NCBI RefSeq assembly: GCF_004564275.1
Contig: NZ_SPDV01000008.1
Span: forward strand, 1-64,000
DNA: 64,000 nucleotides
DNA from: Sphingomonas parva (ex Maeng et al. 2020)
Lineage (GTDB): Bacteria; Pseudomonadota; Alphaproteobacteria; Sphingomonadales; Sphingomonadaceae
Direction of reading: 5' to 3'
The notes beneath the pieces were generated by a model. The model made no database searches and was not told the DNA's origin. It worked only from the letters and a program-made list of their open reading frames with translations. A program made the position numbers and the translations under genes. Below are positions 8,196 to 14,928 of the stretch, one piece after another. Within the stretch, counting starts at the first letter, position 1; every line of letters begins with the position of its first letter.

Positions 8196-9263
8196 TCAGG
8201 CGCCGGCCTTCACCGCCTGGGCCCAGGCCAGATCGGCGAGCCCCTCGAGGCTCGCCGCCATCTTGTCGGCATGGGCCGAGGCGGCGGTGCCGCGCGCGAT
8301 CCGTCCCTTGATCCCGTGGACGATGGCGGCGAGCCGGAACATGTTGAAGGCGATGTAGAAATCGAGATCGGGAATGCTGTCGCGGCCGGTCCTGCGGCAA
8401 TAGGCCGCGACATAGTCGGCCTCCGAGGGGATGTTCCGGGCGGCGAGGTCCAGCCCCGCCAGGCCGGTCGTGACGCCTGCCGGCATCCGGTACATCATCA
8501 GGTGGTAGCTGAAGTCGGCGAGCGGATGGCCGAGAGTCGACAGCTCCCAGTCGAGCACCGCCAGGACGCGCGGCGCCTCGGGGTGGAAGATCATGTTGTC
8601 GCAGCGGAAATCGCCATGGATGACCCGCGCCTCGTCCTCGCCGGGCGGGATGTTCGACGGGAGCCACTCGACCAGCCGGTCCATCGCCGCGACGCGGCCC
8701 GCCTCCACATCCTCCAGATACTGGGTCGACCAGCGCCGGATCTGCCGCTCGAAATAATTGCCGGACTTGCCGTAATCGGCGAGGCCGGCCGCCGCGGGAT
8801 CGATCCGGTGCAGCTGCGCGATCGTGGCGTTCATCGCATCGAAGTAGAGCGGCCGCTCGGCGTCCGGGACCTGCGGGAGGTCGGCATCCCAGAAGATGCG
8901 GCCCTCGACCATGTCCATCACGTAGAAGGCCGTTCCGATCACCGTCTCATCGGTGCAGAGGGCATGCGCATGCGCCACCGGAAAGTCTTGCGATTGCAAC
9001 GCACTGATAACGCGATACTCGCGATCGACGGCATGCGCACCGGGCAGCAGCTTGCCGGGTGGCTTGCGCCGCAGCACATAGGAACGGCGCGGTGTGATCA
9101 GCTTGTAGGTGGGGTTTGACTGGCCGCCGCGAAATTGCTCGACTTGCAGGGGGCCGTCGAAGCCTTGCACCTCGCGCTCCAGCCACTTCTCGAGAGCCGT
9201 CACGTCGAAGCCCTGACCATTGCGTACTTCGGTCGTGCCGCTATTCTGTGCGCTCCTGTCCAT
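8196..9263 (-). CDS. Phosphotransferase family protein (APH fold, ACAD10/11-like kinase domain)
   Basis: 355 residues with the aminoglycoside-phosphotransferase/choline-kinase fold: an early GGQSNPTYKL nucleotide loop, HGDFRCDN catalytic loop and VLDWELSTLGHPLADF metal-binding loop. This subfamily (bacterial homologues of the ACAD10/11 kinase domain) phosphorylates small hydroxylated molecules such as 4-hydroxy acyl-CoAs, and usually works with acyl-CoA dehydrogenases; none is adjacent here. I took the ATG at 9263 because GGAGGG lies upstream of it. A longer reading upstream runs into the sigma gene promoter region. Confidence 0.88.
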   Translation of the reverse strand: MDRSAQNSGTTEVRNGQGFDVTALEKWLEREVQGFDGPLQVEQFRGGQSNPTYKLITPRRSYVLRRKPPGKLLPGAHAVDREYRVISALQSQDFPVAHAHALCTDETVIGTAFYVMDMVEGRIFWDADLPQVPDAERPLYFDAMNATIAQLHRIDPAAAGLADYGKSGNYFERQIRRWSTQYLEDVEAGRVAAMDRLVEWLPSNIPPGEDEARVIHGDFRCDNMIFHPEAPRVLAVLDWELSTLGHPLADFSYHLMMYRMPAGVTTGLAGLDLAARNIPSEADYVAAYCRRTGRDSIPDLDFYIAFNMFRLAAIVHGIKGRIARGTAASAHADKMAASLEGLADLAWAQAVKAGA

Positions 9264-9360
9264 TTCTACGAAGACCCTCCGGTGCGTGGCTTTCGATGAC
9301 GGCAATCTGGCAGCCCATCCCGGCCCGGCGGGCACGCTCCCCTCGGGCCTTGCTGCTGTA

Positions 9361-9870
9361 ATGGGCGCCGACGGGATCAAAGAGCAACAATTCGCGGAGG
9401 TCAGTGCAACTTGCACCGGCCTTATCACGCGCATCGCGCTGTCCTACGAGGCCGATCCGGCCCTTCGCCGCGAGCTTGTCCAGGACATATTGCTCGCCGT
9501 CTGGATCGCCCTCGACAATTTCAGGGGCGAGGCCTCGCTCAAGACCTTCACCGCCTCGATCGCGCAGAAGCGCTGCATCTCGCACGTCACCCGGCGCGCG
9601 CGTGAGCCGCGGCAGGTCGAGCTGCCGACCGATCTCATCTCCGCGGCCCCGCCGCCGGACGAGATCGCCCTCCGCAACGATCAGAAGAAGCGGCTGGTCG
9701 AAGCCATCCAGCTTCTTCCCATCCCCCAGCGCGAGGCCATCGTCCTTGCCATTGAAGGATTCAGCTATGCCGAGATGGCCGAGATCCTCGGAATTTCGAC
9801 CAACGCCGTCATGCTCCGCTGCCAGCGGGCAAAGACGACGCTGAAGTCGATCATGGAGCGGCGGTCATGA
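9361..9870 (+). CDS. RNA polymerase sigma factor, ECF type
   Basis: 169-residue sigma-70 family factor with only region 2 (LVQDILLAVWIALDNFRGEASLKTFTASIAQKRCISHVTRR, about 41-81) and region 4 (LPIPQREAIVLAIEGFSYAEMAEILGISTNAVMLRCQRAK, about 121-160), the layout of extracytoplasmic-function factors. The ATG at 9361 starts just before region 2. Its last codons overlap the next gene by 4 bases (ATGA), and that gene is an integral membrane protein, so the pair resembles a sigma/membrane anti-sigma unit. Signal and regulon are unknown; the peptide locus lies 0.8 kb downstream on the same strand. Confidence 0.88.
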   Translation: MGADGIKEQQFAEVSATCTGLITRIALSYEADPALRRELVQDILLAVWIALDNFRGEASLKTFTASIAQKRCISHVTRRAREPRQVELPTDLISAAPPPDEIALRNDQKKRLVEAIQLLPIPQREAIVLAIEGFSYAEMAEILGISTNAVMLRCQRAKTTLKSIMERRS

Positions 9871-10487
9871 GCGATTCCGATCTGGACCTGGAGAAGCTCG
9901 CCGAGCTTTGGAACGAGCCGGACGCCAGTACGGCCGAGGACGTCGATGCGCTGGCCCGTCGCGCCAGGCGCGAGGCGCGGCTGATGGGCTGGGCGGACAC
10001 GGCGCTGGCCGTGATCATCGTCGGCAGCCTTGTACTCGGGGCGATGATGAAGCCGTCGCTGCCGGTTGCGGCCGGCGCCCTGCTCACCATCGTCATGACT
10101 CTGTGGCTGAACTGGAAGCGCCGCAACTTCCGGCAGATCAATCGTACCCTCGCGGCCGCTACGCGCACCGATTTCCTCGAGAGCAGCATCCGGCTGGCGC
10201 GGACCCGGCTGCGGCGTGCCACGTTCAGCCTGATCACCTTCCCGCCGGCGATCCTGGCGGCGCTCCTCTATCGGGTGAGCACCAAGGGGGAGATCGATCA
10301 TCCCGTTATCGCCATCGTCAAATGGGCGGCCTCGCTTCGCGGCATGGTCGCGCTCGGCCTGCTCGTCCTGCTGTTTCTGTGGATGCTCCGCTCGCGTCGC
10401 CGGCAGCGGGACGAGCTTCGTCGCCTGGAGGAGATTCACCGCGACTATGCCGAGGAAGCCGAGCGAGAGCAGCGGCTTGAGGTCTGA
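9867..10487 (+). CDS. Multi-TM protein coupled to the sigma factor, possible anti-sigma
   Basis: 206-residue protein with an acidic/basic cytoplasmic-looking N-terminus (LDLEKLAELWNEPDAS then RRARREAR), two adjacent hydrophobic segments (about 43-63 and 65-82), and two more near 118-135 and 155-174, ending in a charged coiled region (RSRRRQRDELRRLEEIHRDYAEEAEREQRLEV). No zinc-binding anti-sigma HxxxCxxC motif is visible. Its ATGA overlap with the sigma gene strongly suggests joint function, such as membrane sequestration of the factor. That role is inferred from context only. Confidence 0.7.
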   Translation: MSDSDLDLEKLAELWNEPDASTAEDVDALARRARREARLMGWADTALAVIIVGSLVLGAMMKPSLPVAAGALLTIVMTLWLNWKRRNFRQINRTLAAATRTDFLESSIRLARTRLRRATFSLITFPPAILAALLYRVSTKGEIDHPVIAIVKWAASLRGMVALGLLVLLFLWMLRSRRRQRDELRRLEEIHRDYAEEAEREQRLEV

Positions 10488-10619
10488 GTCGGCGTAATTA
10501 TCCACCGCTTTTCCCGAGATTTCCTCAATTTGGTCCCCACCTAAATCTGCCGCGCTGCGAAAGGAATCCGGCTTCCGACCGACTGGCCAGCAGGGGTAGA
10601 AAAGACGTCGCGGCCGTGC

Positions 10620-10636
10620 CTCGCGAGGTTCGCGAG
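10620..10636. promoter_or_regulatory. Small hairpin in the leader of the peptide gene
   Basis: CTCGCGA (10620-10626) and TCGCGAG (10630-10636) form a perfect 7-bp stem around GGT, about 50 bases before the peptide start. It could be an operator or an mRNA structure. The 200-base gap 10488-10688 holds no other clear signal; no convincing -35/-10 pair was seen. Confidence 0.4.
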
Positions 10637-10688
10637 TTTCAGAACAAGACGATCTTTCTTCCGCCTGCAGTGCCAACGGAGGAATATC

Positions 10689-10814
10689 ATGAAGAAGATC
10701 GACATCGCCAAGCTGCCGCAGCTCAAGACGCCGGTGGGCCTGCATGGCTCGGTCAAGCAGAGGGAAGTCGGCGGCCCGGGCTGCGTTGGTATCCTGATCA
10801 TCATCTTCAGCTGA
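10689..10814 (+). CDS. 41-residue peptide, candidate RiPP precursor
   Basis: Short gene with an excellent ribosome site (GGAGGA five bases before the ATG). The product starts MKKIDIAKLPQLKTPVGLHG, a lysine-rich leader-like part, and continues SVKQREVGG followed by a strikingly hydrophobic tail PGCVGILIIIFS. A Gly-Gly pair (residues 28-29) just before the tail matches the usual leader/core boundary of exported modified peptides, giving a 12-residue core with one Cys. Two overlapping genes for related jelly-roll/HEAT proteins follow, with a stable hairpin between. No peptidase or exporter is adjacent. Alternatives are a small membrane-active toxin or a membrane peptide. Coding status is well supported; function is inferred. 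Confidence 0.75.
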   Translation: MKKIDIAKLPQLKTPVGLHGSVKQREVGGPGCVGILIIIFS

Positions 10815-10826
10815 GGCGGCGGTAGG

Positions 10827-10848
10827 GGAGGGCGCTCTGGCGCCCTCC
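10827..10848 (+). terminator. Attenuator-like hairpin between peptide gene and downstream genes
   Basis: GGAGGGCGC (10827-10835) pairs perfectly with GCGCCCTCC (10840-10848) around TCTG, 12 bases after the peptide stop and 24 bases before the next ATG. There is no T-tract, so it may be a leaky terminator or a 3' stabiliser that raises peptide mRNA over enzyme mRNA, an arrangement common after RiPP precursor genes. Confidence 0.55.
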
Positions 10849-10872
10849 GCGCCGAGGGAGTAACCGAAGCGG

Positions 10873-11865
10873 ATGATCGCTGGAGACGTGCTCGCGCGCT
10901 GGATGGCGGATGCCCGCGCGCGTGACGAGACGATGCAGGGCGTGGTGCGCGCCGGGGCTGCCGTCGAGGCGCTGCCGGCGCTTCAGGCGTTGGCAGACCA
11001 GGTCGACCAAGTGGCGGATTCGGGCTCGGCCGTCCTTGCCGCGGCCGCGCGTTTCCTCGCGACTCCGGGTGCGATCGAGGCGTGCCTGCGCCCGCTGATC
11101 GACGCCGCACGCGCCGACCCGTTCTTCCGGCCGGCCTTCCGCGCGGTGTCGAGCGCCATCCGGTCGGGCCTCGTGCTGTACGAACGGCCGGAGCTGAGTC
11201 TGCTCCTCGCGGAGATCGCGGCGGACGATCTCGCCGCCAAGCGGACGTTCGCGCAGGGGCCTTCGTCGATCACCTTCACCGGCGATCACAGCCTGCTTCA
11301 CTTCATCGACGCGGGTGGCGCGACCTTGTCCTTCTGGGAAGCGCCCATGCTCGACGAGAGCTTTTCCGCGGTGGCCGCCGCGCCGTGCCGGCCGGTCGGC
11401 CGCCGCAAGCTTCGCGACGGCGAGACGATCGTCCTCGACGGCCGCCGGGAGGCCTTCGTCATCGAGCATCTGAGCGCGACCATGGTCTACGTCCAGGCGA
11501 CGACGCGCGTCGGCGGTGGGGCGCTGAGCCGCGAATATGATTCGCGCACCATGGCCTTCGTCGGCGCCAGCAGCACCGACGATGCGGCCTCGCGCACCGG
11601 CCTTCTCCTGACCTTGCTGCGCGACATGGACCGCCAGGATGCCGTTCCCTTGTTCATCAGGGCGATCCGGGAAGAGGATTTCCATGGCCGCTGGCATGCG
11701 ATGCGCGAGCTGCTGGCCCTCGACGCGGATACCGCTCTGCCGCACTTGCGCGAAATGGCCCGATCGGATCCGCATCCGGAGGTCCGCGGGGCGGCCGCGC
11801 AGACGCTCGCAGCCTTCTTTCCGGGGGATACGCCCGCCGAGGAGCGCCAGTCATGCCCCGCCTGA
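10873..11865 (+). CDS. Jelly-roll-like protein with C-terminal HEAT repeats, lacking metal ligands
   Basis: 330 residues, no signal peptide. A helical N-terminus (1-110) leads to a beta-rich region (about 125-235) and helical HEAT-like repeats (about 240-317: ALDADTALPHLREMARSDPH then PEVRGAAAQTLAAFF). It aligns by eye with the next protein: FWEAPMLDESFSAV here against [15 protein letters not shown] there, so the two metal histidines are replaced by Met-159 and Asp-161. It may be an inactive paralogue that presents the peptide to, or forms a heterodimer with, its neighbour. GAGGGAG lies 12 bases before the ATG, a weak spacing. Its end overlaps the next gene by 13 bases. Confidence 0.75.
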   Translation: MIAGDVLARWMADARARDETMQGVVRAGAAVEALPALQALADQVDQVADSGSAVLAAAARFLATPGAIEACLRPLIDAARADPFFRPAFRAVSSAIRSGLVLYERPELSLLLAEIAADDLAAKRTFAQGPSSITFTGDHSLLHFIDAGGATLSFWEAPMLDESFSAVAAAPCRPVGRRKLRDGETIVLDGRREAFVIEHLSATMVYVQATTRVGGGALSREYDSRTMAFVGASSTDDAASRTGLLLTLLRDMDRQDAVPLFIRAIREEDFHGRWHAMRELLALDADTALPHLREMARSDPHPEVRGAAAQTLAAFFPGDTPAEERQSCPA

Positions 11866-12785
11866 TCGAGACCGAAACCGACGACCGGATCGAGCTCGGC
11901 GATCTGATCGAGGCGCTGGAGACGGGCGGCTTCGATCCGGAGGACGAGGAGAGCATCGTCGCCTTCGGTCCGGCGCTGCGTGCCCTCTCCAACAATCGGC
12001 GCTTCCTGGGCGATCTGATCATCGAGGAGCTGAAGCAGAACTGCTCGGGCCAGCGGCGGAAGAACCAGTACACGCCGCAGGTGTTCGTCCTGCACGGCAG
12101 CTCGGGGAAATACCTCATCCGCGCCAATTTCTGGCCTGCCGAGACCGACAGCGTAGTCGTGAACAGCGGCAAGGATCCCTTCTTCTACGAGCTGCCGCAC
12201 GACCACAATTTCAGCTTCCTGACCGTCGGGCATCACGGGCCCGGCTATTGGAGCGACTATTACGAATATGATTACGAGCGGACCGTCGGCTATAGCGGCG
12301 AGAAGGTGGACCTGCGCTTCGTCGAGCGTTCGCGGCTCGATCCCGGCAAGGTGCTGCTCTATCGCCGGCACCGCGACGTGCACAGGCAGCTGCCGCCGGA
12401 CGCCCTGTCGATTTCGCTGAACATCCTCGCGCTCTCGCCGGCGAGCGAGTTCCGCCACCAATATCTGTTCGACATCGAGCGGTCGGAGATCGTCAAGGTC
12501 GGCAATCCGTCGTCGCTCGAGAGCCTCGTTCTCCTCGCCGGTCATTGCGGCGGCGAAGAGGGGCGCGCGCTCGTCACCGACTTCGCGGACCATCATCCCA
12601 GCGATCGCATCCGCTTCGCGGCGGTGCGGGCGCAGGCGGCTCTCGCCTCGTCGGCCGATGACCGGATCTCGGTCTATGAAGCCGCGATCGGATCGGACAG
12701 CCCGTACGTCCGCGAGATGGCGGCCCAGGAGGCGCGGCGGCTCGAGGCCGTGCGTCCCTGGCTGGAGAGCGTTCCGGCGGCCTGA
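11853..12785 (+). CDS. Cupin-like metal-binding protein with C-terminal HEAT repeats, candidate peptide-modifying oxygenase
   Basis: 310 residues, cytoplasmic. After an acidic helical N-terminus comes a jelly-roll domain (about 75-205) with the cupin-type metal site PHDHNF (His-116, His-118) and a later histidine in [18 protein letters not shown] (His-177), the 2-His-plus-His layout of Fe(II) cupins. HEAT-like helices follow (about 222-305). Unusual aromatic/acidic stretch [11 protein letters not shown] at 132-142 follows the site. Coupled to the preceding gene by a 13-base overlap with its own GAGGAG ribosome site. Known family assignment: none that I can name with certainty. I infer oxidation or another modification of the 41-residue peptide. 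Confidence 0.75.
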
Positions 12786-12804
12786 CGCATGCCCCGGCGG
12801 AGCG

Positions 12805-14928
12805 TCACCCCGCCCGCTTGAGCGCCAGCCGATGGGTGTGGAGCAGGGGCTCGGTATAGCCGGACGGCTGCGCCGCCCCTTCGAAGATCAGCGCACGCGC
12901 GGCCTGGAAGGCGATGCTTGCCTCCGGATCGGGCGCCATCGGCCGATAACCTGGGTCGCCCGCATTCTGCCGGTCCACCACCGCGGCCATCCGCAGCAGC
13001 GCCTCCTCCACCTGCGCGGGCGCGACCACCCCGTGGAGCAGCCAGTTGGCGACGTGCTGACTCGAAATGCGGCAGGTCGCACGATCCTCCATCAGGCCGA
13101 CGTCGTGGACGTCGGGGACCTTGGAGCAGCCGACGCCCTGGTCGATCCAGCGCACCACATAGCCAAGGATGCCCTGGACGTTGTTCTCGAGCTCCTCGCG
13201 AACCTCCTCCGCACTCCAGTTTCGGCCATCGGCGATCGGGATGGTCAGCAGGTTGGCGAGCGCGGCGGGAGTCCGGCCGGCAAGTGCGCGCTGCCGGGCG
13301 GCGACGTCGACGCGGTGATAATGGATCGCGTGCAGGGTCGCGGCCGTGGGGGAGGGGACCCAGGCGGTGCTTGCGCCCGCCTCCGGATGGATGTGTTTCT
13401 GGGCCAGCATGTCGGCCATGCGATCGGGCATTGCCCACATGCCCTTGCCGATCTGGGCGCGGCCGGGGAACCCGCACGCGAGGCCGGTATCGACATTGTT
13501 GTCCTCATAGGCCTTGAGCCAGGCCGCGCTCTTCATCTCGCCCTTGCGGACCATCGGGCCCAGTCGCATCGACGTGTGGATCTCGTCGCCGGTGCGATCG
13601 AGGAAACCGGTGTTGATGAAGACGATCCTGTCCTTCACCGCCGCGATTACCGCGCCGAGGTTTGCCGAGGTTCGGCGTTCCTCGTCCATCACCCCGATCT
13701 TGATCGTGTTGCGCGCCAAGCCCAGCAGGTTCTCGGTGCGATCGAACAGCGCGCCGGCGAACGCGGCTTCCTCCGGCCCGTGCATCTTCGGCTTGACGAT
13801 GTAGATCGATCCGGCCGCGCTGTTGGCGCGCCTTTCGCCGATGTCGTGGAGCCCGATCAGCGCGGTGATCACGGCGTCGGCGAGGCCTTCATGGACCTCC
13901 TCGCCATCGATCCTCATCATCGGGTTGGTCATCAGATGCCCGACGTTGCGGACGAACAGCAGCGCGCGGCCCCTGAGGGTCAGCGTCTCGCCGCCGGGCG
14001 CGACATAATGCCGGTCTTCGGCGAGCCGCCGCTCGAAGCTGCGACCCCCTTTCGCGACCTGCGCGGACAGATCGCCTTTCATCAGCCCCAGCCAGTTGCG
14101 GTAGACGCCGATCTTCTCCGATGCATCGACGGCGGTCACGCTGTCCTCGCAATCCATGATCGCAGTGATCGCGCTCTCGAGCAGGATGTCGGCCACTCCG
14201 GCCATGTCGTCGCGGCCGATGGGATGGGCGGGGTCGAGCACGATCTCGACATGAAGGTCATGGTGGCGCAGCAGAATGGCGCCGTCGCGCCAGCCGGCGA
14301 GGCGGGCGGGATCGTCGAGTCCGCCCCGGTCGGTCACCAGCCGGTCCCCCTCGATCCGGTAGAAGGAGACGTCGGCGTGCCGCCCGCCGCTGAGAGGGGC
14401 GATCTCGTCGAGCAAAGCACGGCCCCAGTCGACCACGCGCCGGCCGCGCGCCGCGTCATACCCGCCCGCCGGCGGCAGGTCGCCGAGCGCATCGGTGCCG
14501 TAGAGCGCATCGTACAGGCTGCCCCAGCGCGCATTGGCGGCATTGAGGGCGTAGCGCGCGTTGTTGACGGGCACGACGAGCTGCGGTCCGGCGATCCGCG
14601 ATATCTCCGGATCGACGTTCTCGGTGCCGATCGTGAACGGCGCCGGCGGATCGACGAGATAGCCGATCTCGCGGAGGAACTCTTCTTCCTCCACAGGCGA
14701 GGGCGGAAGGCCGTGCAGGCCGGCGTTGCGCCGGTCGATCGCCTCCTGCAGGCGGTCGCGCTTCCTCAGCAGCCGGCGGTTTTCGGGAGTGAGCTCGCGC
14801 AGCAGGGCCGAGAAGCCGAACCAGAAGGACGCGGGCTCGATCCCGGTGCCGGGAAGCGCTTCCTCCTCGAGGAAGGACTTGAGCTGCGCGTCGACCTCGA
14901 TCCCCGAGACCAGCACATGTTGCGCCAT
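12805..14928 (-). CDS. glcB: Malate synthase G
   Basis: 707-residue cytoplasmic enzyme condensing glyoxylate with acetyl-CoA to malate in the glyoxylate bypass. The length matches the single-chain G isoform (about 720) rather than the shorter A isoform. Family signatures include [17 protein letters not shown] (metal/catalytic acidic residues), [39 protein letters not shown] and [19 protein letters not shown]. The ATG at 14928 has AAAGGGGGC upstream. No isocitrate lyase gene is adjacent. It runs towards the peptide locus and ends 19 bases from it. Confidence 0.96.

Follow-up and report, generated by a model that had tools for sequence, protein, structure and literature searches.

In the pathways for ribosomally synthesized and post-translationally modified peptides (RiPPs) of the MNIO (DUF692) type, such as those of methanobactin (MbnB/MbnC) and of TglH/TglI, a short precursor is encoded beside an iron oxygenase and a working partner protein. 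The thiol dioxygenases, whose three-histidine ligand pattern is HxH...H, act on free thiols or on the N-terminal cysteine of proteins. The locus described here lies in the first 64,000 nucleotides of contig NZ_SPDV01000008.1 of Sphingomonas parva (the window) and can be set beside both. It comprises three genes on the forward strand, which encode a precursor-like peptide of 41 amino acids (10689..10814), protein A of 330 residues (10873..11865), with a helical N-terminus, a cupin-like barrel and a HEAT C-terminus, and protein B of 310 residues (11853..12785), a thiol-dioxygenase-like cupin with a helical, HEAT-like C-terminus. A would be a pseudo-enzyme partner and B is the putative catalytic subunit. 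We propose, with a probability of about 0.68, that this cassette constitutes a RiPP-like pathway in minimal form, of a class so far undescribed, in which A and B bind the leader of the peptide and B oxidises its core. The proposal is drawn from sequence comparison and structure prediction, and the locus is filed as RiPP-like rather than as a proven RiPP.

Unlike the MNIO pathways, the cassette has a thiol-dioxygenase-type cupin, HEAT-like helices and a related, ligand-less partner, that is, a different fold; no DUF692 match was found in A or B with Pfam. The best structural matches of B include the 3-mercaptopropionate, mercaptosuccinate and cysteine dioxygenases and PCO4, and A matches the same enzymes apart from PCO4. 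B differs from them in its added HEAT-like domain and in the peptides linked to it, most of which (110 of 141) carry no Cys beyond residue 20. It also has SxSxN at the site where cysteine dioxygenase (CDO) has SxHxY. The HEAT part of A weakly resembles the HEAT-repeat bilin lyases CpcE/CpcF (NCBIfam CpcF, E 0.00045), but A scores 19.9 bits against a cut-off of 220 and has a cupin-like barrel as well. Kinship with the phycobilin lyases was dropped, the HEAT similarity being only sub-threshold. A cupin-fold protein paired with a ribosomal precursor is also found in the biphenomycin-like pathway: PbsQ is reported to be a JmjC-related RiPP hydroxylase of the cupin/JmjC type that hydroxylates ornithine as a tailoring enzyme, in a cluster that also has an MNIO, an arginase and a B12-radical SAM protein (PMC12257519). 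The window cassette, by contrast, encodes no enzyme candidate other than the cupin pair, and the oxygenase role of B is putative. No paper on the combination of the peptide with A and B was among the matches listed in PMC, where subscription papers and preprints mostly fall outside, so that absence from print is not implied.

Across genomes, the peptide and B are found together almost without exception. Among 199 genomes of the same family, B homologues are present in 74, spread over 41 of 96 genera. A whole-genome search with a peptide profile, a control independent of gene position, matched 72 genomes. Both are shared by 71, where 26.8 would be expected (hypergeometric P = 3.8e-49); the profile thus matches in 71 of the 74 genomes with B as against 1 of the 125 without it. 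The profile had been built partly from 25 of these genomes, together with 11 named loci. Without the 25, the peptide is found in 46 of 49 genomes with B and in 1 of 125 without it, or 46 shared genomes out of 174 for an expected overlap of 13.2 (hypergeometric P = 2.8e-37); this leave-out removed the 25 only, and the 11 named loci may be near others of the 199. Since the genomes are related and relatedness was left uncorrected, none of these P values is a true probability. The three B-bearing genomes missed by the profile (G068, G076 and G155) do have peptides, in loci L070, L040 and L092.

The association also holds gene by gene. We compared 156 loci, namely 76 regions (the first set) drawn from all B-bearing genomes but G176, which was left out (73 of 74), together with 80 named relatives, the best of 402; they are not independent, as eight named loci appear to match first-set loci (e.g. 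L118 and L033). A peptide gene lies upstream in 152 of them (74/76 first-set regions and 78/80 named loci), 15 of these peptides having been placed with hand-picked motifs, and all but one of the 152, that of L093, have an A within the next 1300 nt (151 loci). Six genomes have two separate, visible cassettes, each with its own peptide (L032/L034, L116/L121, L115/L122, L117/L124, L039/L091 and L045/L090), the match in L091 being weak (E 0.011); in a seventh genome with two (L114/L131) only one cassette is visible. G1024 has a second cassette too, which lies outside this comparison. Of the four loci without a peptide, L095 ends with its contig inside B and has a profile match elsewhere on the contig, and L114 offers only 763 bases before B to the contig end. 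In L101 about 39 kb of other DNA interrupt the operon within A (G162:C1, L249 and L101), and the peptide lies that far off together with the initial part of A. The fourth, L177, is discussed below. The first-pass annotation, made from the window alone, had inferred a RiPP-like class and had advised a search for small open reading frames (ORFs) beside B homologues; homologues that consistently lacked a short peptide gene were to refute it. The counts above go strongly the other way and, together with the multi-precursor and exporter-bearing clusters described below, favour its inference; the small ORFs found also proved better conserved in their N-terminal part than in the tail.

In the window, the peptide gene encodes MKKIDIAKLPQLKTPVGLHGSVKQREVGGPGCVGILIIIFS in the start context AACGGAGGAATATC-ATG, with a GGAGG ribosome-binding site at 10678..10682. 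The 41-codon gene with a strong ribosome site was thus correctly recognised at the outset. The profile matches this gene at E 2.1e-16, and the two other matches in the genome reach only E 1.5. The ratio of nonsynonymous to synonymous polymorphism (pN/pS) is below 1 in 45 of 45 peptide pairs examined (range 0.04-0.79). Because it stands beside the cassette in nearly all loci, has pN/pS below 1 and co-occurs genome-wide with B, the small ORF cannot be put down to chance. There are 143 distinct sequences among the 152 peptides, with a median length of 51. Their N-terminal part tends toward I-D/E-x-x-x-L/I-P-x-L-x-T-x-x-G-x-x-G-S; in 37 aligned peptides no column is invariant and two (L12 and G20) exceed 90%, while the commonest residue of a column has a mean frequency of 0.52 in residues 1-22 and of 0.34 in residues 23-41. 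Two marks of a RiPP precursor are therefore seen: a short, ribosomally made precursor gene, present as a conserved ORF with a ribosome-binding site, and a conserved leader before a variable core, present as the common LPxLxTxxGxxGS part followed by divergent tails.

The 41-residue product of the window can be divided into a leader-like MKKIDIAKLPQLKTPVGLHGSVKQREVGG and a hydrophobic tail, PGCVGILIIIFS, with a presumed boundary between them. Peptides of the window clade share QxEVGGxxC followed by an aliphatic tail. Those of the Novosphingobium/Erythrobacter types have DDRIVIIMVYLYE-like tails, the Sphingomonas types DDVFDYIIGVAILIYE tails and the Sphingobium types DISLMDIVIAIID tails. Of the features first ascribed to the peptide, the lysine-rich leader and the Gly-Gly pair hold for the window clade and not for the family. 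A Cys past residue 20 occurs in 31 of the 141 peptide loci compared.

The genes of A and B overlap by 13 nt. Their products are related by profile-profile comparison (hhalign E 5e-6, probability 86), and both AlphaFold models, predicted with high confidence scores (pLDDT 95.2 for B and 92.7 for A), adopt the thiol-dioxygenase/cupin fold, in agreement with the original description of two overlapping, related cupin-like/HEAT genes. The best Foldseek matches of B are the thiol dioxygenases 4tlf, 6xb9 and 8vni, cysteine dioxygenases and PCO4 (best E 1.4e-8); those of A have the same fold (best E 8e-6). A matches HEAT family PF13646 at E 2.2e-10. In B the HEAT match is sub-threshold (E 0.0047), and the predicted model ends in helices.

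Alignment of 40 B proteins reveals 21 invariant columns, among them H116, H118, D175, H177, S186 and N190. The three histidines, invariant in 40/40 sequences, were counted in this alignment, which is free of any motif filter; a later B set was not used for the purpose since its sequences were accepted only with HxHxF near the start. The usual cupin motif has a glutamate at a set position after HxH. B has none there, which makes a three-histidine site likely, and its predicted model unites the cupin fold with the three-His ligands of a thiol dioxygenase, the metal being presumed. In 31 A sequences only M1, R273, W274, R278 and A308 are invariant. A is most likely a non-catalytic paralogue of B, because it has no conserved histidines. 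The initial idea that the two proteins modify the peptide has accordingly to be divided: B looks catalytic and A does not. That the modification is "perhaps" an oxidation is what the predicted fold of B suggests. B sequences from loci with and without a peptide Cys differ in eight columns, none of them at the histidine set.

In Pfam scans no family covers the main domain of B, no CDO/PCO match appeared among the 40 B members at E 0.1, and no thiol-dioxygenase match to B was among those listed in a sequence search of the Protein Data Bank. Pfam and NCBIfam scans of the peptide, A, B and the two upstream genes detected no radical SAM, YcaO, LanM, lasso B/C or MNIO marker, as the first-pass annotation had stated. 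General models of the same two collections gave no PqqD-type match in A or B, dedicated RiPP recognition element (RRE) models and RRE fold comparison not having been used. A defence system was dropped after a PADLOC scan of A and B found no known defence protein, and a phage origin was dropped because there was no PHROGs match and tblastn gave no phage record that matched B.

In five expanded Sphingomonas loci, L120 (DG1-23), L123 (S. gei), L125 (S. trueperi), L134 (S2M10) and L174 (Leaf33), the first peptide-A-B set is followed by another two or three peptides and then by a second A-B pair, the additional genes lying about +1000 to +4000 from the start of the first B. The extra peptides share the leader type LPxL(D/E)(L/F)(E/D)x(G/A) and differ in their tails. 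An ATP-binding cassette (ABC) exporter (PF00664+PF00005) follows the second A-B pair in L125 and L134, and an HlyD-ABC-FtsX set follows it in L174; visual inspection of L123 showed an ABC exporter and an HlyD-like frame. Exporter genes were thus read in four of the five, L120 being outside that scan. A MarR-like protein is encoded after the first B in 4/5 of these loci, below the Pfam cut-off in both members scanned. A sixth expanded cluster is carried by the Alteromonas stellipolaris plasmid pASTE61-200 (CP013927.1, 1761-9929; L262), in the order HlyD, MacB-type ATPase and permease, two small peptide frames, A, B and an ABC-2 type transporter pair, which brings the clusters with exporter genes to five of six. 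One of the two frames has ETVGAACFGIGMAVGVYL, and the frame ending in ETVGAACFGIGMAVGVYLNQLR resembles the core of the window clade. Save for one ABC ATPase, the genes of this cassette are annotated as hypothetical proteins. As judged from gene content and order, this is the anatomy of peptide natural-product or RiPP gene clusters.

In the mechanism that we favour, the 41-residue product would be the precursor, its better conserved N-terminal half serving as recognition leader and its variable, hydrophobic C-terminal part as core. A and B would bind each other to form a paired enzyme and hold the leader, probably through the HEAT helices together with A's cupin, which lacks the ligands. B would bind iron at H116/H118/H177, as a three-histidine non-heme-iron cupin, and oxidise a residue of the core. 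In the window clade this would most simply be the Cys of EVGGxxC. Where the core has a Cys its thiol may be oxidised; Cys-free cores would offer another target, for instance the peptide backbone or the side chain of an aliphatic or aromatic residue. The exporter-bearing clusters suggest a secreted product, and the single cassettes with fixed neighbours (42/76) suggest a physiological or signalling one.

If the core is indeed modified, this would be a RiPP class whose enzyme pair has no standard RiPP marker, present in 74/199 genomes of the family, and the thiol-dioxygenase fold would be extended to ribosomal peptide cores, many of them Cys-free. The O2-dependent modification of Cys-free cores would be a chemistry not known for this fold, and the pair would illustrate cleanly how an enzyme can be partnered by its ligand-less paralogue. 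We would give even odds to the whole of a wider proposition: that a HEAT-fused three-His cupin and its ligand-less paralogue define a new RiPP class, with O2-dependent modification of hydrophobic, often Cys-free cores, and that this putative class is common in Sphingomonadales and scattered in other Proteobacteria.

Several observations weigh against the modification pathway. L177 lacks a peptide and has, besides B, a truncated A that is fused with other sequence; L093 has a peptide in front of a remnant of B, and A was not detected there; and G018, an 85% complete genome, has a peptide-like ORF without A or B (L250, G018:C22), which may be a remnant of a lost cassette. The fold match of B is modest over the whole chain, with a template-modelling (TM) score of 0.40 by query (0.59 by target). 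The lack of a peptide Cys beyond residue 20 in 110 of the 141 loci means that thiol oxidation cannot be the family-wide reaction, and it was dropped as such. The same housekeeping-type genes flank the cassette in 42/76 first-set loci, which is unusual for an antimicrobial. No exporter family is among the commonest cassette neighbours in the first-set and named-locus lists, the latter resting on heuristic gene calls, and no leader protease was noticed near the cassette, no systematic search for one having been made. The window itself is also without a copy of the promoter-like motif described below for its wider clade.

These points bear on what else the cassette could be. The peptide might be an unmodified signal or small membrane protein, bound non-covalently by an oxygen-, iron- or redox-sensing A-B complex that feeds the neighbouring sigma factor or OmpR-like or MarR-like regulators. 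We regard this as unlikely, though it would account for the constant chromosomal neighbours of those 42 first-set loci and for the variety of regulators that adjoin the cassette: an extracytoplasmic function (ECF) sigma factor in 13/80 named loci, a family with Trans_reg_C in 19/80, and the sub-cut-off MarR-like proteins. Tandem peptides with one leader type and differing tails, second A-B pairs and exporters suit a product pathway better, and the ligand-type histidine set of B is complete.

The hydrophobic tails, and the MacAB-like and ABC-2 transporters of the Alteromonas plasmid, would agree with an unmodified bacteriocin-like or toxic peptide for which A and B act as chaperone, export or immunity proteins; the cupin/HEAT architecture of the pair and the histidine set of B are unlike known transport or immunity proteins, for which no Pfam match was obtained, and this seems to us distinctly improbable. 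That the small ORF is only a translated leader (attenuator) for A and B, its product having no role, is scarcely credible. A short ORF followed by a hairpin before A is the arrangement that it would call for, but the amino-acid sequence is conserved across genera with pN/pS below 1, on which grounds chance ORF and attenuator were both dropped, and extra peptide copies occur downstream of A-B. The RiPP-like pathway remains the reading that we prefer.

B is not confined to the family. A profile search found it in 77/246 genomes of the order, in 5/385 genomes of a class sample (one of them outside the family) and in 15/398 genomes of a phylum sample (two outside the class). Three loci lie outside the order, and A precedes B in each of them; L231 and L232 show a clear, short, hydrophobic-tailed peptide before A, and L230 has a weak candidate. 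Two plasmid records match B, that of A. stellipolaris (96% covered) and one from a Vibrio (46% covered), in which no convincing peptide was found.

Upstream of the cassette, and on the same strand, lie an ECF-type sigma factor gene (9220..9870, true start uncertain; Pfam Sigma70_r2 6.7e-11 and Sigma70_r4_2 2.9e-13) and, overlapping it, the gene of a putative anti-sigma partner (9867..10487), so named from its position and overlap only, as its product has no Pfam match at the cut-off. In the window clade this pair may control expression of the cassette. Relatives of the sigma gene precede the cassette in part of the wider clade: among the named loci, the sigma-like family is found about 2.5 kb before B in 13/80 (the member from L125 was domain-scanned) and an anti-sigma-like family about 2.0 kb before B, likewise in 13/80. 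The Trans_reg_C family lies after B, the domain having been detected in the member scanned. A promoter-like element, CGACA-N18-GACT, occurs 177-205 nt before the peptide start in 11/20 wider-clade loci (L035, L115-L120, L123, L125, L134 and L174), where mononucleotide shuffles predict 0.24 matches per whole locus. It had been found by enumeration on overlapping loci (11/18, with 3 or fewer in shuffles), among which L033 and L118 are one genome. The neighbouring ECF sigma factor is a candidate for recognising this element. A scan of 9100-13000 in the window detected no consensus sigma-70 promoter.

The hairpin noted after the peptide gene is present (10820..10854, forward strand; core stem 10827-10835 with 10840-10848), and mononucleotide shuffles seldom give a perfect stem as long as its 9 bp (P 0.01), but its folding energy is ordinary (z -1.25; 25/200 dinucleotide shuffles are as good). 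Long perfect stems follow the peptide gene in 11/15 clade loci, the window included (P 0.01 or less). The hairpin was rejected as a family-wide feature, the median z over 152 loci being -0.46 with 25% below -2 (mononucleotide shuffles), so that it is a clade feature at best.

Further neighbours were recorded as side observations. In the window the cassette is flanked, on the opposite strand, by a malate synthase G gene downstream (12805-14928) and by an APH-type phosphotransferase family gene (8196-9434), neither with an evident link to the peptide. One ABC ATPase family is a neighbour of the cassette in 5/80 named loci. In L115, L117 and L119, ABC-2-like ATPase and permease frames were read by eye on the opposite strand, about +2.4 to +4.9 kb from B. 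Fixed-place cassettes with DDRIVIIMVYLYE-type peptides have signal peptidase- and AcpS-like genes downstream, also read by eye, and a thioesterase family, of which a relative was domain-scanned, lies upstream in 45/76 first-set loci. The genome of the window has a single copy of B, whose closest named relatives, among the best 80 of 402, come from Sphingosinicella.

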